DNA of 64,000 nucleotides from Tissierellia bacterium (GTDB lineage: Bacteria > Bacillota_A > Clostridia > Tissierellales > Peptoniphilaceae): assembly GCA_030537695.1 (NCBI GenBank), contig JAUNVJ010000005.1, positions 24,676-88,675 on the forward strand, given 5' to 3'. Under the pieces are notes generated by a model. It was not told the DNA's origin, searched no databases, and saw only the letters and a program-made list of their open reading frames with translations. Below are positions 34,580 to 45,707 of the stretch, in pieces. Position numbers and translations under genes: made by a program. Positions within the stretch are counted from its first letter, which is position 1; every line of letters begins with the position of its first letter.

Positions 34580-35218
34580 TTATTGCTCAATATCTACCAT
34601 CCAATTTTCATCTTGGGGATTTCTTTTCCATTTTGAAAGTTTTTTCATTTGATTCTCATTGATATAATTACAATTGAGAGCTAATTCCGTCAATTCATCA
34701 TAATTGGAAAGAGAAACATATCGCAAATCAGCCTTTTTAAAATTCTCTTTGGCCTGCGGCAACTGATAGGTAAAGATGGAAGCAATCCCCAACACTTGAA
34801 AACCCGCTTTTCGAAGTGCTAGAGCGGAATCAATAGCAGAGCCTCCCGTAGAGATTAAATCTTCTAAAACTACTACTTTAGCGTCTTTTATAATCTTTCC
34901 TTCAATTTGATTTTGTTTGCCATGATCTTTACTGGAAGAACGGACAAATCCCATGGGCAGGTTCATCTTATGAGCTACGATGGCACCATGGGGAATTCCC
35001 GCCGTCGCCGTTCCCATAATATACTCCACTTCTTCAAATTCATTTTTTATTAATTGAACCAGAGAATTTTCTACTTCTTCTCGTTGTTTTGGATGGGATA
35101 GGATGAGGCGATTGTCGCAATAAATTGGTGATTTAATCCCCGAAGCCCATATAAAAGGCTCATCAGGCGACAGAGATACGGCTTCAATATCCAAGAGTAT
35201 CTTTGCTATATTTTTCAT
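34580..35218 (-). CDS. pyrE: Orotate phosphoribosyltransferase
   Basis: It attaches ribose phosphate (from PRPP) to orotate. The 212 residues have the conserved FIWASGIKSPIYCDNR near the N-terminus and the PRPP loop VVVLEDLISTGGSAIDSA. The length is typical. I chose ATG at 35218 with a GGGGG site seven bases upstream; a TTG at 35224 overlaps the pyrF stop and is less likely. It pairs with pyrF directly upstream. Confidence 0.94.
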   Translation of the reverse strand: MKNIAKILLDIEAVSLSPDEPFIWASGIKSPIYCDNRLILSHPKQREEVENSLVQLIKNEFEEVEYIMGTATAGIPHGAIVAHKMNLPMGFVRSSSKDHGKQNQIEGKIIKDAKVVVLEDLISTGGSAIDSALALRKAGFQVLGIASIFTYQLPQAKENFKKADLRYVSLSNYDELTELALNCNYINENQMKKLSKWKRNPQDENWMVDIEQ

Positions 35219-35220
35219 AA

Positions 35221-35919
35221 TCAAACCCCCAAAAATTCATTTTTTATGTCATGATACGAACCATAGGGATTTTCCGATTGAGTGATGGGACGTCCTACCA
35301 CAATATAATCAGATCCAAGTTCTCCAGCTTGTCTCGGTGTCACCACGCGTTTTTGATCATCATGACTCGTAATTTCCCTTCGTATCCCGGGAGTGACTGT
35401 GAGGAAATTTTCTCCCAATTCTTTTTTGATTCGAGGCACTTCTAAAGCGGAGCATACCACACCAGAAAGACCTGCTTTTTGTCCCAATTTTGCATAGGAC
35501 AATACTGCATCTTCCACCGTTTGGCATCGAAGAAGAATCTCATTTTTCATCATTTCTTCATCTGTAGAAGTCAGCATCGTAATCCCTAAAGTGATCATCT
35601 TTGGATTTCTCTTTTTCACCACTTGTGTCGCTTCTTCCAGCATTTTTCTTCCTCCAGGAATATGGTAATTAATCATATCCACTTTTAAATCCAACATGGA
35701 AATAGTGGCTTTTTTTACGGTATTGGGAATATCGTGAAGTTTTAAATCCAAAAAAATCTTATGTCCTCTTTTTTTCAGTTGACGGACAATTTCTGGTCCT
35801 TCTTTATAATACAGCTCCATACCCACTTTTAAAAAGAGAGCTTCTTCAAATGGAGATAAAAAATCTAATGCTTCTGTCATGCTATTAAAATCCAAAGCGA
35901 TAATTACATCCTTGCCCAT
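35221..35919 (-). CDS. pyrF: Orotidine 5'-phosphate decarboxylase
   Basis: This is the last step of UMP synthesis. The 232 residues contain the catalytic DLKLHDIPNTVKKA signature (Asp-Lys-x-x-Asp type) and the phosphate loop VVGRPITQSENP. The short length matches the bacterial type I decarboxylase. It lies 2 bases upstream of pyrE and 11 bases after ybjQ. Confidence 0.95.
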   Translation of the reverse strand: MGKDVIIALDFNSMTEALDFLSPFEEALFLKVGMELYYKEGPEIVRQLKKRGHKIFLDLKLHDIPNTVKKATISMLDLKVDMINYHIPGGRKMLEEATQVVKKRNPKMITLGITMLTSTDEEMMKNEILLRCQTVEDAVLSYAKLGQKAGLSGVVCSALEVPRIKKELGENFLTVTPGIRREITSHDDQKRVVTPRQAGELGSDYIVVGRPITQSENPYGSYHDIKNEFLGV

Positions 35920-35930
35920 AGCTCCTCCTC

Positions 35931-36248
35931 TTAATCCAATTTGACGGCAGTGCCGGATATGTTTAGGAAAATCATATTTCCCGCTCCTAACGCTTCAAAT
36001 TCCACTTTAATTCCCACGATGGCATCAGCGCCTAATTTACTGGCCCTTTCTTCCATTTCTCGAAGGCATTCCTGTCTTGTGAGGATCACCTCATCCTCAT
36101 AGCCTTTGCTCCGTCCGCCGACAAAGTTTCGAAAACCGGCACCGATATCCTTGACAAAGTCAATTCCATTGACCTGTTCGCCAAACACAAGACCGATATA
36201 TTCTTTAATTTTTCGTCCTTCAATATGATCGGTGGTAGTAAGTATCAA
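35931..36248 (-). CDS. YbjQ/UPF0145 family protein
   Basis: A 105-residue protein starting MILTTTDHIEGRKI, the standard N-terminus of the YbjQ ('heavy-metal-binding') family. It has the conserved KLGADAIVGIKVEFEALG stretch. Function is not established; a pentameric fold is known for the family. The TTG at 36248 is chosen because AAAGGAG sits eight bases upstream; a GTG three codons earlier overlaps that site. It is the first gene of the pyrFE operon. Confidence 0.85.
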   Translation of the reverse strand: MILTTTDHIEGRKIKEYIGLVFGEQVNGIDFVKDIGAGFRNFVGGRSKGYEDEVILTRQECLREMEERASKLGADAIVGIKVEFEALGAGNMIFLNISGTAVKLD

Positions 36249-36268
36249 TATAATCACTCCTTTTGATA

Positions 36269-36277
36269 ATTATAACA
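36269..36277 (-). promoter_or_regulatory. Extended -10 promoter of the ybjQ-pyrFE operon
   Basis: On the minus strand TG-T-TATAAT, 21 bases upstream of the TTG start. No clear -35. Confidence 0.45.
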
Positions 36278-36371
36278 TATATCAAGATGGAGATAGGATC
36301 TTTTTCCATGGGATGATCAAAGTGTATTGGTACTTTCTTTTATTCTCTCCCTTAATCAAGTTCTTAAAAAA

Positions 36372-36401
36372 AGAAAAGGTAAGGATCTACTTACCTTTTC
36401 T
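36372..36401 (-). terminator. Terminator of prfB
   Basis: A 12-bp stem AGAAAAGGTAAG/CTTACCTTTTCT with a 6-base loop, followed on the minus strand by a run of T. Confidence 0.8.
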
Positions 36402-36411
36402 CTTCTATTCT

Positions 36412-37519
36412 TTAACCGGCATTATCTTGTAAAAATGCATTGATAAAAGGATCTAAATCTCCATCCATCACCCGATTGACATCTCCCACTTCTTCATTGG
36501 TTCGATGGTCCTTAACCATTGTGTAAGGTTGAAAGACATAGGATCGAATTTGTGATCCCCAGGCAATTTGTGAATAATTCCCTTGAAGATCCTCAATTTT
36601 TTCTTTTTTTTCTTCTTCTGCCAAGGCAATTAATTTTGCCTTTAACATCTTCATGGCCTGTTCTCTGTTTTTTATTTGAGACCGTTCATTTTGACACTGT
36701 ACCACAATTCCCGTAGGAATATGGGTAATACGGACTGCAGAGTCAGTGGTGTTAACATGTTGTCCTCCGGCACCGGAAGAACGATAGGTATCGATTTTTA
36801 AATCTTCATCTAAAATTTCAACATCGGTATCTTCATCCAATTCCGGAAACACATCCACGGAAGAAAAAGAAGTATGACGTCTTTTATTGGAATCAAAAGG
36901 AGAAATTCGAACCAGTCGATGGACTCCTTTTTCACCTTTTAAATAACCGTAGGCATTTTCACCGACGATTCGAAGGGTGGCGGATTTGATCCCTGCCTCA
37001 TCTTCTTTTTGAAAATCCATCATCTCCACTTTAAATCCTCTTTGCTCTGCATACCGGGTATACATGCGCATTAACATTCCCGCCCAATCCTGAGCTTCCG
37101 TACCGCCGGCTCCTGCATGAATGGCCAATATGGCATTGTGAGAATCATATTCTCCATTTAAGAGGGTTTCCAATTTAAAGGCATTGGCTTTTTTCTCGAT
37201 TTCATTGACCAATGATTTAAACTCATCATAAGAGGAATAATCTTCTTCCAATTCCATCAGTTCTAAAAAGTCCGAAGCGTCGGTACTTAATTCCTGCAAT
37301 TCTTCATATTGATCTACCTTAGTTTGATAGGAGTTTTGCTCTCGAATTACTTTTTGAGCTTTCTCATTATCATCCCAAAAGTCCGGTTCCATTTGAACCT
37401 GATTTAATTCTTTGATCTTACTACGCATGGTAGTGAGGTCAAAGTGATTCACCGAGACTTTCCACTAAGGATTTGGCTTCGTCTAAGCGTTCTTTATCTA
37501 AATAAATATTTTGCTCCAT
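36412..37519 (-). CDS. prfB: Peptide chain release factor 2, with programmed +1 frameshift
   Basis: RF2 reads UAA and UGA stops. The zero frame begins at the ATG at 37519 (AAGGAGGG upstream), runs 26 codons and meets an in-frame TGA at 37441-37439 in the context CTT-TGA-C, the classical autoregulatory slippery site. Skipping the T at 37441 continues as GAC (Asp) into the main frame, giving 368 residues, the normal RF2 length. The main frame carries GGQ in [18 protein letters not shown] and an SPF tripeptide (VRISPFDS). The usual AGGGGG stimulator is replaced by GGTGA. A GTG at 37452 could be mistaken for the start. Confidence 0.95.
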
Positions 37520-37548
37520 GACTGCCCTCCTTGTCTATTAGTAATATT

Positions 37549-37577
37549 AGTATATAGAAAAAGAGCGTCTTTGACAA
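37549..37577 (-). promoter_or_regulatory. Promoter of prfB embedded in the fprA terminator
   Basis: On the minus strand: -35 TTGTCA (37572-37577), 17-base spacer, -10 TATACT (37549-37554). The -35 and spacer lie inside the terminator hairpin of the upstream flavodiiron gene. Confidence 0.6.
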
Positions 37578-37599
37578 GATTTTTCAAAGACGCTCTTTT
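37559..37599 (-). terminator. Terminator of the acyl-CoA dehydrogenase/flavodiiron operon
   Basis: A 15-bp perfect stem AAAAGAGCGTCTTTG/CAAAGACGCTCTTTT with an 11-base loop. Confidence 0.85.
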
Positions 37600-37615
37600 A
37601 TAATTTGAATTAAAA

Positions 37616-38857
37616 TCAGCTATTTGCCTTTTCTTTTATTTCTCGATTCTTTTCCATGGATTCAATAATAGCATCTGCCATAGAATTCATGTCATTTTTG
37701 TTTGCTACGTTTAGAGAAGTGTTGATGGTAACTCTTTCATTGAGAACGTCCATAAGTTTTAGATGTTCATCTAAGAAATCCTCCATCTTATCTCCAACGG
37801 TACAAGCCCAAGTTCCATTTTCGATAATTCCTACTGTTCTATTTTGTACATTGAGAGCTTCCATATCCATTATAAAGTTTTTCATAATCGGATAGATTCC
37901 CAGGTTATAGGTCACGGAAGCCAGAACAATATGAGAATATCTAAAGGTGTCGGAAATCAATTGGGAGAAATGTGTATTGGATACATCATGGACCACTACA
38001 TTGGTCATGCCGCGATCACAAAGGGCAGCAGCTAGAGTTTGGGCTGCAAACTCCGTGTTTCCATACATGGAAGCATAGGCAATCATAACCCCTTCTTCTT
38101 CCGGTTCATAGCTGGACCATTTGTCGTATTTGTCAATAAACCATCCTAGATCGCTTCTCCAAACCGGTCCGTGTAGGGGACAGATCATTTTAATATCAAT
38201 AGTTCCCGCTTTTTTCAATACGTCTTGAACGAAGGGTCCGTACTTGCCAACGATATTGGTATAATATCTTCTGGCAGAATCCAACCAATCTCTTTCAAAG
38301 TTCACTTCATCATTAAATAGTTTTCCGTCTAGAGCACCAAAGCTTCCAAAAGCATCTGCTGAGAATAAAACACCATTGGTCGTGTCAAAACTCATAATAA
38401 CTTCCGGCCAGTGTACCATCGGTGCTTCTATAAACATAATCTCGTGTTTTCCAAAGGAAATCGTATCTCCTTCTTCTACGATAATACAATTTTCATCTTT
38501 GATATGGTAGTATCCAATTTGACGCATGATTTCAAAACCTTGCTCGGAACTGATGATTTTAAGATCCGGATAGCGGATTACCATTTCATCAATAGCTCCG
38601 CAGTGATCAGGTTCCATATGGTGTACAACGAGATAGTCAAGATCTCTTCCGTCCAATACGCCTTCTACTTTTCGAATATAGTCTCTGGCAATGGACCAGT
38701 CCACTGAATCAAATAATACCGTCTTCTCATCTAGTAATAAATAAGAGTTATAAGATACTCCTTCCGGAATCGGAAAGATGTTTTCAAATAGTTCTAAGCG
38801 ATGATCGTTTCCTCCAACCCAATAGAGGTCCTCCGTAACTTTTCTTACACCGTACAT
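37616..38857 (-). CDS. fprA: Flavodiiron protein (FprA-type O2/NO reductase)
   Basis: FprA proteins reduce O2 to water (or NO to N2O) in anaerobes, taking electrons from rubredoxin. The 413 residues have a metallo-beta-lactamase-like diiron domain. Ligand motif HHMEPDHCG (His80, Glu82, Asp84) is followed by MVHWPEVI, SADAFGSFG and CPLHGPVWR. A C-terminal flavodoxin domain (about 255-400) starts GVMIAYASMYGNTEFAAQTLA. It has no rubredoxin domain of its own. It lies 16 bases downstream of a gene that encodes a rubredoxin fused to an acyl-CoA dehydrogenase, so the electron donor is probably that protein. AAAGGAGG precedes the ATG. Confidence 0.95.
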   Translation of the reverse strand: MYGVRKVTEDLYWVGGNDHRLELFENIFPIPEGVSYNSYLLLDEKTVLFDSVDWSIARDYIRKVEGVLDGRDLDYLVVHHMEPDHCGAIDEMVIRYPDLKIISSEQGFEIMRQIGYYHIKDENCIIVEEGDTISFGKHEIMFIEAPMVHWPEVIMSFDTTNGVLFSADAFGSFGALDGKLFNDEVNFERDWLDSARRYYTNIVGKYGPFVQDVLKKAGTIDIKMICPLHGPVWRSDLGWFIDKYDKWSSYEPEEEGVMIAYASMYGNTEFAAQTLAAALCDRGMTNVVVHDVSNTHFSQLISDTFRYSHIVLASVTYNLGIYPIMKNFIMDMEALNVQNRTVGIIENGTWACTVGDKMEDFLDEHLKLMDVLNERVTINTSLNVANKNDMNSMADAIIESMEKNREIKEKANS

Positions 38858-38873
38858 ACTAATCCTCCTTTAA

Positions 38874-40802
38874 TTATTGTCTGTCAGCTGGAAATTCTTC
38901 TTCAATGAAGTTTTGCTTTTCTTCTTGACATTCGGGGCATACCCAATCTTCCGGTAAGTTTTCAAATGTTGTACCAGGATCGATTTCCCCTTCCGAATCT
39001 CCAACATTTGGATCGTATTCATAACCGCAACCGGGACATACCATAACATCATAGGTTGGAGCTAATTTACGAGGTTTGGATCTTCTTACCTTTTTCATTG
39101 GTGGCGCTGGATCTTTTTCGCCGGTTCCTAATTTTTCAGCAAGAACAGGCATAATCTCCATCATATCTCCGACGATTCCATAATCACAGTTTTTAAAGAT
39201 TGCTGCACCAGGATTTTTATTGATTGCAACGATGGTCGCTGCATTTTTGATACCTTTTAAGTGTTGAGAAGCACCTGAAATTCCACAGGCAATATATAAG
39301 TTTCCATTAAATTTCTGTCCGGACATACCTACATATCTCTCAAGGGGTACCAATTTCATAGTTTCTGCAACAGGTCTGGATCCACCAAGAGCTGCACCGG
39401 CAGCATGGGCAAGTTCTTTTGCTATGTCCATATTTTCTTCTCCGCCGATTCCTTTACCAACGGAAACGACTCTTTCTGCTTCGTAAACCGGTGTATCAAT
39501 ATCAATTCCTACTGAAAAGTCATATCCATCTTTTTCCAAGTTTTTAACCAGGATATCTACCGCTTCTTCTACTGTATCTGCATCTATAATTTCTCTTTTT
39601 CTATTGCCAGTAATAGGACCTTCTTTTTTTGCCCCTACTCCTGCACCTTTTTTTCTTTTTGGTAATTTACCAATAATACTGGATGCAATAACGACTCTTT
39701 GAATTTCGTTAGTACCTTCGTAAATGGTAGTAATCTTAGCATCACGATAGAATCTCTCAACGTCCATACCTTTTAGGTATCCATTACCTCCGTGAATTTG
39801 AAGTGCATCATTGACTACTTCCAAACAAATATCCGAAGCAAAGTTTTTAGACATGGCAGCTTCCATGGAATATCTTTCGTGACGATCTTTCATTGCCGCT
39901 GTTGAATAAATCATCAATCTAGCTGCATGGAGTTTTGTTGCCATATCGGCAATTTTAAAAGATACAGCTTGTTGTTGAGCAATGGGGCGTCCAAATTGTA
40001 CCCTTTCTTTCGCATACTTAACAGCCGCCTCATAAGCACCTTGCGCAATTCCTAAAGCTTGAGCTGCAATACCGATTCGTCCACCGTCCAAGGTCTGCAT
40101 AGCAATTCTAAAACCTTGTCCCTCTTGACCCAGTAGATTTTCCTTTGGTACTTTAACATTGTTAAAGATTAATTCTGCTGTTGAAGAAGAACGAATACCT
40201 AATTTGTCATAATGGTCTCCAAAGGTAAAGCCTTCCCAACCTTTTTCCACGATAAATGCAGAAATTCCATGGGTTCCGATTCCCGGAGTAGTTACTGCAA
40301 AAATAATATAAATATCAGCTTTTGGAGCATTTGTAATAAAGATTTTTCCACCGTTTAAGATGTAATGATCTCCATCCAGTTCCGCTGTGGTTTCCGTACC
40401 ACCGGCATCAGATCCTGCCTCTGGTTCCGTCAAACCGAAGGCTCCGATTTTTTCACCCTTACAAAGGGGAACCAAGTATTTTTGTTTTTGCTCTTCTGTA
40501 CCAAAAGCTTCAATCGGATATGCGCCAAGGGAAGTATGTGCCGATAGGATAACTCCGGTACCTCCATCTACTCTGGACAATTCCTCAACAGCAATGGCAT
40601 AAGAAATTACGTCCAATCCTGCTCCACCATACTCTTTAGGTGTCGGAATCCCCATCCAACCGTTTTCACCCATTTTCGCTACTGCTTCATCGGGAAATTC
40701 ATTTTCTTGGTCAAGTCCAAAAGCGATAGGCTTTACTTCAGCTTCCGCAAATTCTCTAATAGCTTTACGAAGAGCTTCATGCTGTTCAGTAGTCTTATAC
40801 AT
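38874..40802 (-). CDS. Three-domain fusion: acyl-CoA dehydrogenase, ETF-alpha FAD domain, rubredoxin
   Basis: The 642 residues hold three redox modules in order. Residues 1-378 are a complete FAD acyl-CoA dehydrogenase, with [15 protein letters not shown], the HGGNGY loop and the catalytic glutamate in YEGTNEIQR (Glu362). Residues 440-558 match the C-terminal FAD-binding domain of ETF-alpha ([52 protein letters not shown]). Residues 588-632 are a rubredoxin with cysteines 589, 592, 622 and 625. ETF-alpha domain I and ETF-beta are absent. I chose ATG at 40802 with AAGGAGG upstream; the longer frame to 40901 runs into the promoter. Predicted flow: acyl-CoA to FAD to FAD to Fe(Cys)4, then to the adjacent flavodiiron protein. 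Confidence 0.92.
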
Positions 40803-40841
40803 ATTTGCCTCCTTAAATAAATTAAAAATAACAAGAAAAGT

Positions 40842-41061
40842 TTGACAATGTTTTCCATCCTCTAAAAAATAAAAAGCAAAACAAAAGTCAAATACTTTCA
40901 ATCTGTACTAATAAAGTATAATATGAATATAGTTTAGCACATAGATATGATCAAGTCAAAATTGACAATGTTTTCCTTTCTTTTAAAAATAAAATTCACA
41001 CAAAATCCCTTGAATTTTAATCTATACCAATAAAGTATATTATGAATATAGTCTAACATAA
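40842..41061. repeat. Imperfect tandem duplication, about 120-base unit, in the promoter region
   Basis: Two units start with the identical 15 bases TTGACAATGTTTTCC at 40842 and 40962. They share further blocks, such as AATAAAGTATA and TATGAATATAGT, near their right ends (about 40909-40933 and 41029-41052), offset by 119-120 bases. Each unit carries a promoter for the acyl-CoA dehydrogenase gene at its right edge. The duplication has diverged by substitutions in the middle. Confidence 0.75.
40931..40959 (-). promoter_or_regulatory. Proximal promoter P1 of the acyl-CoA dehydrogenase/flavodiiron operon
   Basis: On the minus strand: -35 TTGACT (40954-40959), 17-base spacer ending TGTGC, -10 TAAACT (40931-40936) with an extended TG. 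It leaves a 5' leader of about 120 bases containing the conserved unit. Confidence 0.55.
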
Positions 41062-41078
41062 CCCGATAATGAAGTCAA
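41050..41078 (-). promoter_or_regulatory. Distal promoter P2 of the same operon
   Basis: On the minus strand: -35 TTGACT (41073-41078), 17-base spacer, -10 TAGACT (41050-41055). It is in the same relative position in the second repeat unit as P1 in the first, so both were duplicated together. Confidence 0.5.
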
Positions 41079-41339
41079 AGCGATTTTGAGAAAAGTAATT
41101 GTGAAATCCAATATTGCATTTATCGCGTTGAAAATTTGTTTTTATTAGGTTTCGAGTAATTTTTAAAAGATAAAGATAATTGCCAAAATATAATAATTAA
41201 CGTTTCTATCTTAAACATACCCATTAAAAATTGATTTAATTACCATGATTTTATATAAATTTTACTATACTGTGTGAAAAATGATAAAATTTTATCTATA
41301 GCATTATTTATATACAAATTTACTTTTAAACTGATATTA

Positions 41340-41368
41340 TTGTACTGCTATAAAGTTTAGTGTATAAT
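41340..41368 (+). promoter_or_regulatory. Promoter of the lipoprotein gene at 41426
   Basis: -35 TTGTAC (41340-41345), 17-base spacer, -10 TATAAT (41363-41368). It supports the start at 41426 rather than an upstream in-frame ATG at 41360, which would precede transcription start. The rest of 41080-41339 is very AT-rich with no gene. Confidence 0.6.
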
Positions 41369-41425
41369 AAAAAATATGAAATGTCATCTCTATTTGATAA
41401 AATTTTAATTATTAAGGAGGATATA

Positions 41426-42754
41426 ATGAAAAAGGTTATTACGACTCTACTATTTTTATTTTTGACGATTTCCACTGCTTGCACTCGATTTCCTACGGCT
41501 CTGGTTCAGGATCTTCCTTTGGACGGATATCAGTTGGAGGCACATGGTTCCCTATCCATTGAAGATTCTCGTAACGAGAATGGAAAAGCTGCTGTTTTTA
41601 AATACAATTTAATGGGAGAAGCTTCCCAAGGAAAAGTGCATTATGAATTGGAATCTGTAGATAAAGATATCCCTTCCGAAAAAGAAAACCCATTTTTTAC
41701 ACCGGTCAAAAATTTAAGCTATTATTATTCAGATGGGAAAAATTATTATAATCTTTCCTCTTTAAGAGAATTAGCGGATGACAGAGCCTCTCAATCCCTC
41801 CGAAAGATTCACGAGGACTATGTGTCGGTGCCGAAGGAGGTAGCCTATGGCTTTGAACTTCGTCATCCCTTAGATCTCTATTGGGTCGATCTTCCGAAAC
41901 TTTTCCAAGACGAAACATTTCTACAAGCTTTGGATAAGTTGTCAACAGCTTCATTAGTTACCGCCAGTACAATCAAAGTGACGGAAGAGGAAATCAGTAT
42001 TGAAACCGATGGAGAGCAGTTTTTTGAAGATCTAGCCACCTATTTATCCTCCTTGGAGAAAGATCGGGAGACCTATAAAAAAGAAATTGCCTATATAGGC
42101 AAAGAAGTCTTCCACTTGAAGGAAGAAGAAATTCAAGACTTCTTTGCCATGGTATCTCAAGAGGAATTTCCCGCCATGATGAAAGATTTTGGCGATATGG
42201 TAAAGAACAGTACCTTGAAATTTCATGGAATCAAAAAGGATTCAGCCTTTCACTTTGATGTGGACTTATTCCTATCCAGTCAGTGGGAGGGGGAAAAAGA
42301 TTTATCCACCCCAAAATACCACTTAAAAGCCACAGGCATCCTGAAACCTTCTCAAAAAAATATCTTGATTCCAACCCATGTGAAGGAACTTACGGATCTT
42401 CAGTACAGTGAGCTTTTCTTACCTACCATTGCAGATAATCTAATGATTCAAAAAGGGGATAAGAATCTTCATTTTGAAACCTTCCCTATTCTTTTCGAAG
42501 ATCATTATTATGTGGATTCTACGATTATCGATCAAATTGCCAACAGAAATGAGGACGGTTCCTATCGTAATAACGGTAAGACGGTTCAATTGGGCGAAGA
42601 CCATTTTTATCTGGGAGAAGAAAAGTTTGACACCCTTCCCAATGCAAAAAATGACAGTAAATATCCTTTGCGACAAATTGCCCAATATTTGGGATATAAA
42701 GTGAATTTTATCATGGATCGTGAATTTGACAGTTATTATATTGAATTAGAATAA
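41426..42754 (+). CDS. Predicted lipoprotein of unknown function
   Basis: 442 residues with a lipoprotein signal peptide MKKVITTLLFLFLTISTAC, the cysteine at position 19 being the likely lipidation site. The central part (about 60-340) is soluble, extracytoplasmic and unrecognised. The last 60 residues (KYPLRQIAQYLGYKVNFIMD) resemble the copper-amine-oxidase N-terminal-like domain, a cell-wall-associated beta-alpha unit found in many anaerobes. AAGGAGG precedes the ATG. It is monocistronic, divergent from the acyl-CoA dehydrogenase operon. Confidence 0.75.
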   Translation: MKKVITTLLFLFLTISTACTRFPTALVQDLPLDGYQLEAHGSLSIEDSRNENGKAAVFKYNLMGEASQGKVHYELESVDKDIPSEKENPFFTPVKNLSYYYSDGKNYYNLSSLRELADDRASQSLRKIHEDYVSVPKEVAYGFELRHPLDLYWVDLPKLFQDETFLQALDKLSTASLVTASTIKVTEEEISIETDGEQFFEDLATYLSSLEKDRETYKKEIAYIGKEVFHLKEEEIQDFFAMVSQEEFPAMMKDFGDMVKNSTLKFHGIKKDSAFHFDVDLFLSSQWEGEKDLSTPKYHLKATGILKPSQKNILIPTHVKELTDLQYSELFLPTIADNLMIQKGDKNLHFETFPILFEDHYYVDSTIIDQIANRNEDGSYRNNGKTVQLGEDHFYLGEEKFDTLPNAKNDSKYPLRQIAQYLGYKVNFIMDREFDSYYIELE

Positions 42755-42755
42755 A

Positions 42756-42778
42756 AGAAGGGTTCCAATGACCCTTCT
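42756..42778 (+). terminator. Terminator of the lipoprotein gene
   Basis: Stem AGAAGGGT/ACCCTTCT with a 7-base loop and a run of seven T. Confidence 0.8.
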
Positions 42779-42831
42779 TTTTTTAAACGGATTTTTGATA
42801 TAATAGATCTATGACTAAGAAAGGAGTAACT

Positions 42832-43413
42832 ATGAATTTAAAAGAATTATTGATCCAACGACGAAGTTATCGCAAATTTGATGCTTCAAAAAAATTATCT
42901 CAAGAGGATATTGAAGCTATTTTACAGTCCATATCCTATGCTTCTTCTGCCAATAACCGTCAATACTTAAGGTTTTTATCCATTGAAGATGACAAAAAAG
43001 TTCAAGAGGTATTTAACATTACCAAATGGGGAGCATCTCTTCCGAATAATATGGGCCAACCGAAAGAAGGAGAAGAGCCGGTCTACTTTGTCGCACCTCT
43101 ATATGATCCGAAACAAGTGATGAAATTTAACGGCATTGATCAAGGTTTGGTGATTTCCAATATGACTTTGACTGCCTATGAACGAGGAATCGGATCTTGT
43201 ATTATTGGAAATTTCAACCATAAAAAACTTCGTGAAATTTTACCCATCGATCCCTCGATGGAATGTGATGTGTTGATCGCCTTCGGCTATCCGGCTATTG
43301 AGTCCACTTTGAAGGATATCTCTTTAGATCAAGACCAGTCCTATTACTTGGATGAAAAGGGAGAGTATATCGTTCCCAAATATAAGTTCCAAGAAATTGT
43401 CACGAAAATATAA
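42832..43413 (+). CDS. Nitroreductase-family FMN oxidoreductase
   Basis: 193 residues starting MNLKELLIQRRSYRKFDASK, the N-terminal motif of the nitroreductase family, with SSANNRQYLRF for FMN binding. The C-terminal IGSCIIGNF segment and a PAIEST-type end follow. The natural substrate cannot be read from the sequence. The ATG at 42832 has GAAAGGAG seven bases upstream; an ATG at 42811 lies before that site and is rejected. A TATAAT (42799-42804) lies just upstream. Confidence 0.88.
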   Translation: MNLKELLIQRRSYRKFDASKKLSQEDIEAILQSISYASSANNRQYLRFLSIEDDKKVQEVFNITKWGASLPNNMGQPKEGEEPVYFVAPLYDPKQVMKFNGIDQGLVISNMTLTAYERGIGSCIIGNFNHKKLREILPIDPSMECDVLIAFGYPAIESTLKDISLDQDQSYYLDEKGEYIVPKYKFQEIVTKI

Positions 43414-43417
43414 AAAA

Positions 43418-43440
43418 AGTTCCGATTAAAAATCGGAACT
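43418..43440. terminator. Bidirectional terminator between the nitroreductase gene and telA
   Basis: A 10-bp perfect stem AGTTCCGATT/AATCGGAACT with a 3-base loop. T-rich tails occur on both sides. Confidence 0.85.
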
Positions 43441-43443
43441 CTT

Positions 43444-44565
43444 TTATTTATTGGCAATATTTCGCAAGGATGATTTTAAATGATCTTCTATTTTTTTCAA
43501 TTCGCCTTCTGCTTCTTGCCGTTGGCGATGACCTTGTATTTGTATATCACGAACTTCGTTTAAGGCGCTGATTAACTGTTCATTGGTGTAGCGGATACTT
43601 TCTATGTCTACGATGCCTCGCTCCGCCAATTTTGCCGTTTCCACCGTCGTATCTTTCAATACTTTAGCATTTTTCTTTAACAGTTCATTGGTCAAATCCG
43701 TCACTTCACGAGTTGCTTTTGCCGCCAAACCGGAATGGGTCGCTCCCAGTGCAATAACCATTTGAGATTTCCATAGTGGAATTGTGTTGACGATGGTAGA
43801 TTGTATTTTTTCCACCATAACCGTATTGGAGGATTGGACCATCCGAATTTGAGGTGCCATTTGTATCGAAACTAAACGGGTCAGATCCAAATCATGAATT
43901 TTCTTTTCAAATCGATTGATCATATTTACATAGTCATTGGCCTTTTGAGCATCTACCGGAAGATTGGTGTCTTGGGCCTTCTTTTGAAGTTTGGGAAGTT
44001 CTTCCTCCCGAGCTTGTCGAATCTTTTCTCGACCAGCCATTATATACATGGACAGTTCCTTATAGTAGGATTCATTTAGCTCATACATTTGATCCAAGGT
44101 GGCTATGTCTTTCATCAATTGGATTTGATGTCCTTCTAAAACTTTTGTGATAGTATCTACATTGGTTTCCGCCTTATTGTATTTAGCCTTTAATGCGGTG
44201 GCCTTATTCCCTTGTTTCTTAAAAAAGCCCACAATTTTATTTTCATTTTCATCAATGTCAAAACTTTTTAATTCTGTGACGACATCAGTCAATAAATCAC
44301 CAATTTCTCCTAAATCTTTTGTCTTAACCGAATCCAGTGTTCGTTCTGAAAAATTGGCAATCTTCTTTTGTGCACCGGCTCCATATTGCAAGACGATATT
44401 GGCATTGGTAATATCAATTTTTTTGGAAAATTCTTCCACCTGTCTTTTTTCATCAGCCGTCAACTGAAGGTCTTCCTTTTCTAGAGGTCTTTCATCTACA
44501 GTCAACTCCGGTGCTTCCGGTACCGTCTGATCGTCTTCTAAGGATAATTTAATTTCTCGATCCAT
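43444..44565 (-). CDS. telA: TelA-family (toxic anion resistance) protein
   Basis: 373 residues, soluble and almost entirely alpha-helical with long coiled coils. The N-terminal region DITNANIVLQYGAGAQKKIANFSE is the TelA/KlaA core. The family was named from plasmid tellurite resistance, but chromosomal copies have been linked to envelope stress and antimicrobial tolerance, so the anion role should not be assumed. It follows xpaC by 2 bases; telA-xpaC pairs are common in Firmicutes and probably act together. Confidence 0.92.
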   Translation of the reverse strand: MDREIKLSLEDDQTVPEAPELTVDERPLEKEDLQLTADEKRQVEEFSKKIDITNANIVLQYGAGAQKKIANFSERTLDSVKTKDLGEIGDLLTDVVTELKSFDIDENENKIVGFFKKQGNKATALKAKYNKAETNVDTITKVLEGHQIQLMKDIATLDQMYELNESYYKELSMYIMAGREKIRQAREEELPKLQKKAQDTNLPVDAQKANDYVNMINRFEKKIHDLDLTRLVSIQMAPQIRMVQSSNTVMVEKIQSTIVNTIPLWKSQMVIALGATHSGLAAKATREVTDLTNELLKKNAKVLKDTTVETAKLAERGIVDIESIRYTNEQLISALNEVRDIQIQGHRQRQEAEGELKKIEDHLKSSLRNIANK

Positions 44566-44567
44566 TG

Positions 44568-45707
44568 CTACCTCCTAATTGTAAAATCATCTTCCAATAG
44601 ACCTTCCTGTCGAAGCATGGTCTTTAACACGGATATATCCGAGGAAAGATCAATTAATTGTTCTTCATACAAGTTGTCTAGTAATCGCCCGAAAGCCTCA
44701 TTGATCGTATCCAGAGTCTGTTCAATTTCCCTCATGGACTCTTTGACATGATCTCCGATATTTACGTCTTCCATGCTTTCATAACTATGACATAATTTCA
44801 ATGTAGTGGGAAGATAGTATTCAATAAATTTATTTAATTGATCGGCATCTCCCGGGTATTGTTTGACATGGGCAAAAATCTTTTGAATCGTCGTCAACAG
44901 CCTGGTTAATTTGTTTTGCATCGACGGTTCCATATCTTCAGCAATCTTGGTCAATTCTGTCACATAATACTTGGCCTTGGTAGCCACTTCAGAATCCAAA
45001 TTTGAATGTACAGAAAATGTTTCCCCCATTTGTGTCCCTACATTTTGTGCTTCTTCCAATTTATGCTCTTTGTATAATTTGTAGGTTTTTCCGTCTAAAA
45101 TAAAAATTTCTTCATTTTCCACAAGACGACCTTGTCGGAAAAAATCCTTACTGATGAATTCCCTTAATTCTTCTACTACAAATTCCTTACTTTTCCCTAC
45201 AACCACTGCCAGATCATGAACAGGAATCACAGTAGAATTTCCGATTTCTCGTCGATATTTTCGAAACCGAATTTCCTGTTCCTTTAATTTTTTACTCTTT
45301 CGCAACCCTAAAAAGGAAAGAATCAAAGCGGGAATAATCCAAAAGACTAACAGGACGAAATTTCCTGAATTATCGTTTAATCCATCAATCAATAATCCCA
45401 TGGTCATTAATAGATGAAATCCAATGGAAAGTTTAGATAGTCGGTTCAAATTCTTCATACGACGAAAGGCTTTTGGACTTTGATTGATAATCGTATCATC
45501 TTCTTGTATGGAATAGGGCTTTTTCTCGATACTTCCTGTAAATAATCTACTGATGGAAGATCTTGTAAAGTCAATGGCCTGATCAATGCTATCGGCAATC
45601 AATCGATTTACATCTTTAAAATTATCGCTTTTAATCGCCTGGTCTACAATATCTTCCAGTTTTTTCTTTTCCTTTTCTTCTTCCGGCCGTAAAGAATTTT
45701 TTTTCAT
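44568..45707 (-). CDS. XpaC-family membrane protein (TelA partner)
   Basis: 379 residues. A charged N-terminus is followed by two adjacent membrane segments at about 100-145 (LSIGFHLLMTMGLLI and FVLLVFWIIPALILSFLGL). A cytoplasmic region then carries a winged-helix-like part (VIPVHDLAVVVGKSKEFVVEELREF) and a helical tail. The family is named for 5-bromo-4-chloroindolyl phosphate hydrolysis in Bacillus, but its biochemical role is unknown. AGGTGATTGT precedes the ATG. It sits between degV and telA. Confidence 0.8.
   Translation of the reverse strand: MKKNSLRPEEEKEKKKLEDIVDQAIKSDNFKDVNRLIADSIDQAIDFTRSSISRLFTGSIEKKPYSIQEDDTIINQSPKAFRRMKNLNRLSKLSIGFHLLMTMGLLIDGLNDNSGNFVLLVFWIIPALILSFLGLRKSKKLKEQEIRFRKYRREIGNSTVIPVHDLAVVVGKSKEFVVEELREFISKDFFRQGRLVENEEIFILDGKTYKLYKEHKLEEAQNVGTQMGETFSVHSNLDSEVATKAKYYVTELTKIAEDMEPSMQNKLTRLLTTIQKIFAHVKQYPGDADQLNKFIEYYLPTTLKLCHSYESMEDVNIGDHVKESMREIEQTLDTINEAFGRLLDNLYEEQLIDLSSDISVLKTMLRQEGLLEDDFTIRR

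Follow-up and report, generated by a model that had tools for sequence, protein, structure and literature searches.

A putative butyryl-CoA oxygen oxidoreductase operon from a Peptoniphilus relative, and rubredoxin-less sisters of its fusion protein

Results and Discussion

Two adjacent genes in a 64,000-nucleotide stretch of DNA from a Tissierellia bacterium (hereafter the window) very probably encode a butyryl-CoA oxygen oxidoreductase (BOOR), which would pass electrons from butyryl-CoA to O2 and yield water. On this reading a complete BOOR operon would be carried by a Peptoniphilus relative, the window sequences being nearest to that genus and its kin in trees of both the dehydrogenase and the flavodiiron protein. 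The original prediction implied that the underlying electron chain was new; it had already been published, in 2024, as the BOOR of Fusobacterium, and Bystrom and Wolthers 2024 (doi 10.1021/acs.biochem.4c00279) is reportedly the primary paper, as cited by later ones. To this concept our analysis adds confirmation, breadth, and a rubredoxin-less sister lineage. No paper on BOOR in Peptoniphilus stood among those listed by a literature search (10 of 15), though one may still exist, and the genus is not named in the accessible part of the preprint PMC13404960.

Architecture of the gene pair

The pair consists of the following elements.

38874..40802, minus strand: fusion gene (putative BCR subunit of BOOR), 642 aa, assigned from the list of open reading frames, Pfam and kinship
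37616..38857, minus strand: flavodiiron protein (FDP) gene of the two-domain type (putative FDP subunit of BOOR), 413 aa
38858..38873, minus strand: spacer between the fusion gene and the FDP gene, 16 bases, with the ribosome-binding site AAGGAGG for the FDP gene

An acyl-CoA dehydrogenase, the FAD domain of ETF-alpha and a rubredoxin had been claimed to share one polypeptide, and Pfam, applied to the 642 residues, agrees. The dehydrogenase occupies residues 1-376 (Acyl-CoA_dh_N 5-117, Acyl-CoA_dh_M 121-216, Acyl-CoA_dh_1 228-376) and is followed by a linker, the ETF-alpha FAD domain at about 400-560 (ETF_alpha 440-519), a further linker and the rubredoxin (Rubredoxin 587-632); all five matches score well over the curated cut-offs. 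In the Pfam scan the fusion matched neither EtfB nor the EtfA N-terminal domain, its ETF portion being the ETF_alpha C-terminal domain only. The list of open reading frames starts the gene at a TTG at 40901, while the ATG at 40802 is preceded by AAGGAGG. The FDP gene, said to follow 16 bases downstream, is separated by exactly that gap and lies on the same minus strand. Its product contains the ODP beta-lactamase domain together with weak flavodoxin matches (Flavodoxin_1, 25.6 bits, cut-off 25; Flavodoxin_5, 25.8 bits, cut-off 27), and its Pfam scan gave no rubredoxin match.

The best 60 of 206 solved chains matching the fusion all cover the dehydrogenase part only, and none among them spans the whole protein. 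In an AlphaFold model of the fusion alone (mean pLDDT 83.9, pTM 0.65), confidence is low at residues 121-140, which lie within the dehydrogenase, and again at 383-393 and around 561-580. The latter two stretches are, in the model, in keeping with flexible linkers between tethered domains.

Kinship with characterized systems

BOOR is described as the Fusobacterium nucleatum pair FN1423-FN1424 in PMC12630350. According to McGregor and Wolthers (PMC12288474), FN1423 is the FDP and is encoded in the same operon as a fusion that joins butyryl-CoA dehydrogenase to the EtfA C-terminus and rubredoxin; the proteins form an alpha4beta4 complex which oxidises butyryl-CoA, reduces O2 to H2O and has no NO reductase activity. 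The window pair shares with Fusobacterium BOOR the fused domains, their order and the adjacent FDP, and differs in its lineage and in its spacer (16 bases against 24 in F. vincentii). The fusion is 70% identical (443/635) to the 636-aa fusion of F. vincentii, which has the same Pfam domain set, and the FDP 64% identical (258/405) to its 405-aa counterpart, the comparison thus being with F. vincentii and the purified enzyme being that of F. nucleatum; Fusobacterium was left out of the trees discussed below. The F. vincentii record (NZ_CP084075.1, L170) is called a plasmid and is, at 2.1 Mb, chromosome-sized. Roseburia inulinivorans DSM 16841 shares the gene pair at 72% (458/633, fusion) and 63% (257/409, FDP) identity.

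On these comparisons the window pair looks like an ortholog of Fusobacterium BOOR, and this orthology supports the O2 branch of the predicted chain from acyl-CoA through flavins and rubredoxin to a diiron site. By orthology only, the proposed donor, a fatty acyl-CoA, also narrows to butyryl-CoA. The same chain might instead prefer another acyl-CoA (e.g. of the isovaleryl-, isobutyryl- or glutaryl-type, from amino acid fermentation), although we regard this as unlikely. Such dehydrogenases can switch substrate through few residue changes, and no model names a substrate for the fusion, its best NCBIfam match being acryloyl-CoA reductase at 488 bits against a cut-off of 640. However, the 70% identity to the F. 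vincentii fusion runs end to end, its F. nucleatum relative uses butyryl-CoA (PMC12288474), and the solved relatives ranked 4 to 9 are named butyryl-CoA or short-chain acyl-CoA dehydrogenase, those ranked 1 to 3 being named acyl-CoA dehydrogenase only.

Parts of the pair are also homologous to two other systems. The dehydrogenase and the EtfA FAD domain have counterparts in PDB 5ol2, which we take to be the electron-bifurcating Bcd-EtfAB complex, whereas the fusion is without EtfB and the EtfA N-terminal domain and carries a rubredoxin. The second ETF flavin serves bifurcation in Bcd-Etf; since the domains missing from the fusion are EtfB and the EtfA N-terminal domain, this second flavin should be absent from it. 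Bifurcating Bcd-EtfAB, which has EtfB and a full EtfA with an NADH-oxidising flavin, was rejected as an identity for the pair, given the ETF_alpha C-terminal domain only and an FDP as the neighbouring gene. The FDP shares its diiron/flavodoxin core, with all iron ligands, with the flavorubredoxin NorV of E. coli, where norV is adjoined by norW, the NADH-dependent reductase of NorV. NorV carries its rubredoxin as part of the FDP chain (PMC13133992), but in the window the rubredoxin is joined to the dehydrogenase. A flavorubredoxin of the NorV type was likewise rejected, as the window FDP has no fused rubredoxin by Pfam.

Conservation and spread of the pairing

When a C-terminal alignment of seven fusions was used as the query against 84,980 species genomes, at least 551 stretches were found to encode a relative of the fusion. 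The best 80 were kept, chosen by closeness to the C-terminal part of the window protein and thus not representative of distant relatives. Adjacency is kept among them: the FDP gene lies directly downstream on the same strand in 79 of the 80 loci, with an intervening distance estimated at about 10 to 261 bases (the FDP runs off the contig in L028, L060 and L076), and is unreadable in the 80th (L064), whose contig ends 159 bp past the fusion. The fusion architecture itself occurs in all 80, L072 being cut by its contig at the 5' end. Chance neighbours are ruled out by the 79 adjacent pairs, and an assembly artefact by the recurrence of the architecture.

Families represented in the best 80 loci include the Peptoniphilaceae, Lachnospiraceae, Clostridiaceae and Erysipelotrichaceae, among others, and BOOR is reported to be encoded by many obligate anaerobic Firmicutes (PMC12288474). 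The system is nevertheless scattered, not universal, as the full C-terminal part was found in 5 of 398 genomes sampled broadly from the phylum, two of the sampled genomes (G001 and G002) being carriers already known beforehand.

Some carriers have additional genes. Downstream of the BOOR fusion of Clostridium sartagoforme, at a distance of about 2.7 kb, lies the gene for a second, closely related FDP (L043:10431-11669). In Vescimonas fastidiosa (L171:2854-8761, on a 142-kb record called a plasmid), an Rrf2 regulator, the BOOR fusion and the FDP stand in a row, followed by a nitroreductase and a second FDP-like gene with 41% identity to the window FDP. Two database fusions, P0060 and P0117, contain two ETF_alpha stretches each, with a segment repeated in tandem in P0060; these doublings could be assembly errors.

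Conserved residues and trees

Residue Glu362, in an IYEGT motif and presumably the catalytic base of the dehydrogenase, is invariant in 80 of 80 fusions, as are cysteines 589, 592, 622 and 625, which we take to be the rubredoxin Cys motif. The iron ligands of the FDP (H80, E82, D84, H85, H149, D168 and H229, assigned after PMC13133992) are kept in 77 to 79 of the 79 FDPs, the exceptions all being gaps (one at D168, two at H229).

A dehydrogenase tree of 53 rows included 31 fusion domains (the window and 30 of the 80 loci, hand-picked) and 20 stand-alone dehydrogenases. The fusion domains form one group apart from the stand-alone enzymes with support of 91/93, which is below the starred level of the tool (95/80) and was counted against the BOOR reading; among the stand-alone rows, L106 sits on a very long branch. 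In an FDP tree of 48 rows, comprising the FDPs of the same 31 loci and 17 others, the 31 paired FDPs form one group at 100/99 together with a single other protein, the second FDP of Clostridium sartagoforme.

These patterns bear on whether the two products work together. They might be co-transcribed and act apart, the rubredoxin domain feeding a protein such as rubrerythrin and the FDP being served by free rubredoxin, and short open frames matching rubredoxin alone do occur in four of five carrier genomes. We consider this very unlikely, however: the genes are adjacent in 79 of the best 80 of at least 551 loci, the paired FDPs form their own group just as the fusions do, and the Fusobacterium proteins form a complex (PMC12288474).

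Oxygen or nitric oxide as the acceptor

The predicted chain ended in O2 or NO, and it is the NO branch that lacks support, the published BOOR complex having no NO activity. A pair that mainly guards against nitric oxide, with the FDP reducing NO to N2O, would nonetheless suit a protein class which reduces O2 and/or NO (PMC12288474). Among solved structures, the top five relatives of the FDP all bear the name anaerobic nitric oxide reductase flavorubredoxin, and the position of E. coli Asp52 is also Asp (Asp53 in the window) in 79 of 79 FDPs. Conversely, all 77 paired FDPs readable at the site of E. coli Ser262 carry Tyr there (Tyr265 in the window), as O2-selective FDPs do, the other two of the 79 being gapped. 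The same Tyr occurs in 12 of the 17 other FDPs, and exchanging the residues at the Asp52 and Ser262 positions changed little for the E. coli enzyme (PMC13133992). Residues 53 and 265 were consequently rejected as markers of O2 selectivity, since they do not discriminate, and sequence alone cannot decide between O2 and NO. We reject NO as the main substrate on the activity reported for the complex (PMC12288474), and a role chiefly in NO defence appears barely plausible.

Proposed electron path and metabolic setting

As a BOOR, the pair would begin with the dehydrogenase domain converting butyryl-CoA to crotonyl-CoA. In the order we infer for the fusion, electrons would pass from the dehydrogenase FAD to that of the tethered ETF-alpha domain and on to the tethered rubredoxin iron, from which they would reach the FMN and diiron site of the FDP partner, where O2 would be reduced to water. 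The crotonyl-CoA may then be handed back to ordinary Bcd-Etf, such that O2 would be removed without direct NADH cost. This follows the published argument that such anaerobes can remove O2 with butyryl-CoA, a weak reductant, and spare NADH (PMC12288474).

All 20 carrier genomes searched encode a stand-alone dehydrogenase that has an EtfA match no more than about 4 kb away (in L167 the dehydrogenase is followed by a gene resembling etfB), so that crotonyl-CoA could be re-reduced with energy conservation in carriers, as proposed in print. The published scheme calls for RnfC, yet one of 25 carriers gave no match to it, which was counted against the BOOR reading. The RnfC_N domain matched in the other 24 (5/5 and 19/20); these matches are weak evidence for Rnf, because the domain also matches 9 of 14 control genomes, 8 of them over the cut-off.

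Rubredoxin-less sister fusions

Dehydrogenase and ETF domains without a rubredoxin characterize 31 of the 120 rows among the matches listed (120 of 573), although these 31 include one 346-aa fragment and some others are possibly incomplete. One such ACAD-ETF fusion of 561 aa, in G096 (L091; L108:7386-9071), groups as the sister of the BOOR fusions at 100/99 in the 53-row dehydrogenase tree, and its relatives occur in Peptococcus simiae and a MAG named Anaerococcus sp., among others. No FDP match was found in 18 kb around it in L108; genes of an amino-acid-type ABC transporter, identified by eye, lie upstream.

Peptoniphilus sp. KCTC 25270 encodes both forms. A rubredoxin-less copy of 563 aa (L035:3821-5512), with the IYEGT motif kept, precedes the BOOR fusion (L035:5810-7747) by 297 bases on the same strand, the FDP follows, and the two fusions are 80% identical over 561 residues. 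This tandem arrangement was seen only in KCTC 25270 among the best 80 loci. It is possible, and we suggest it tentatively, that BOOR belongs, as a single branch, to a broader set of ETF-headed dehydrogenases, whose rubredoxin-less members may be subunits of heteromeric BOORs or may link acyl-CoA to a different acceptor by a path not yet described.

Anaerovorax odorimutans has a second ACAD-ETF fusion without a rubredoxin (L155:1480-3069), with no FDP match in its 4.6-kb flanks. It groups with ordinary stand-alone dehydrogenases, which suggests a separate origin, but on a long branch whose placement is unsure.

Flanking sequences and candidate regulatory elements

Two further features border the pair.

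37559..37599, minus strand: terminator-like hairpin directly after the FDP stop, with 15-bp perfect arms, an 11-base loop and a T-rich end
40846..41083, minus strand: two tandem, diverged leader copies of about 119 bp upstream of the fusion gene, identical in 86 of 120 aligned columns

The hairpin was spotted by eye and is absent from an inverted-repeat scan with a loop limit of 8, its own loop being 11. As it follows the FDP gene and the next gene encodes a peptide chain release factor (36412-37452), the fusion and FDP genes probably form a short transcription unit. Both leader copies hold a promoter-like site, TTGACT-17-TA(G/A)ACT, and the repeats are a possible promoter region of the pair; these sites are consensus matches only, of which the 4.2-kb stretch holds 24 against 14.6 +/- 3.3 expected.

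One leader copy also holds an imperfect 7-1-7 palindrome, TATATTCATAATATA, which we did not see among the three best palindromes of each of 79 relatives. By eye, and on the same three best palindromes for the window and 79 loci, no common 7-1-7 operator was seen upstream of the pair; palindromes resembling TAATAATTATTA occur there in L032, L043, L044, L045 and L063. In Roseburia inulinivorans, the BOOR pair lies near an Rrf2-family regulator gene (preprint PMC13404960). In contrast, no Rrf2 match was obtained among the flanking window genes scanned within 34580-45707, namely those at 41360-42754 (no Pfam match), 42811-43413 (nitroreductase) and 43444-45707 (two genes) on one side, and at 36412-37452 (the release factor), 35931-36257, 35221-35919 and 34580-35224 on the other.

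The release factor gene itself opens, at 37439-37519, with a 26-codon start that ends in CTT TGA and precedes the main frame, seemingly the classic programmed frameshift of release factor 2.
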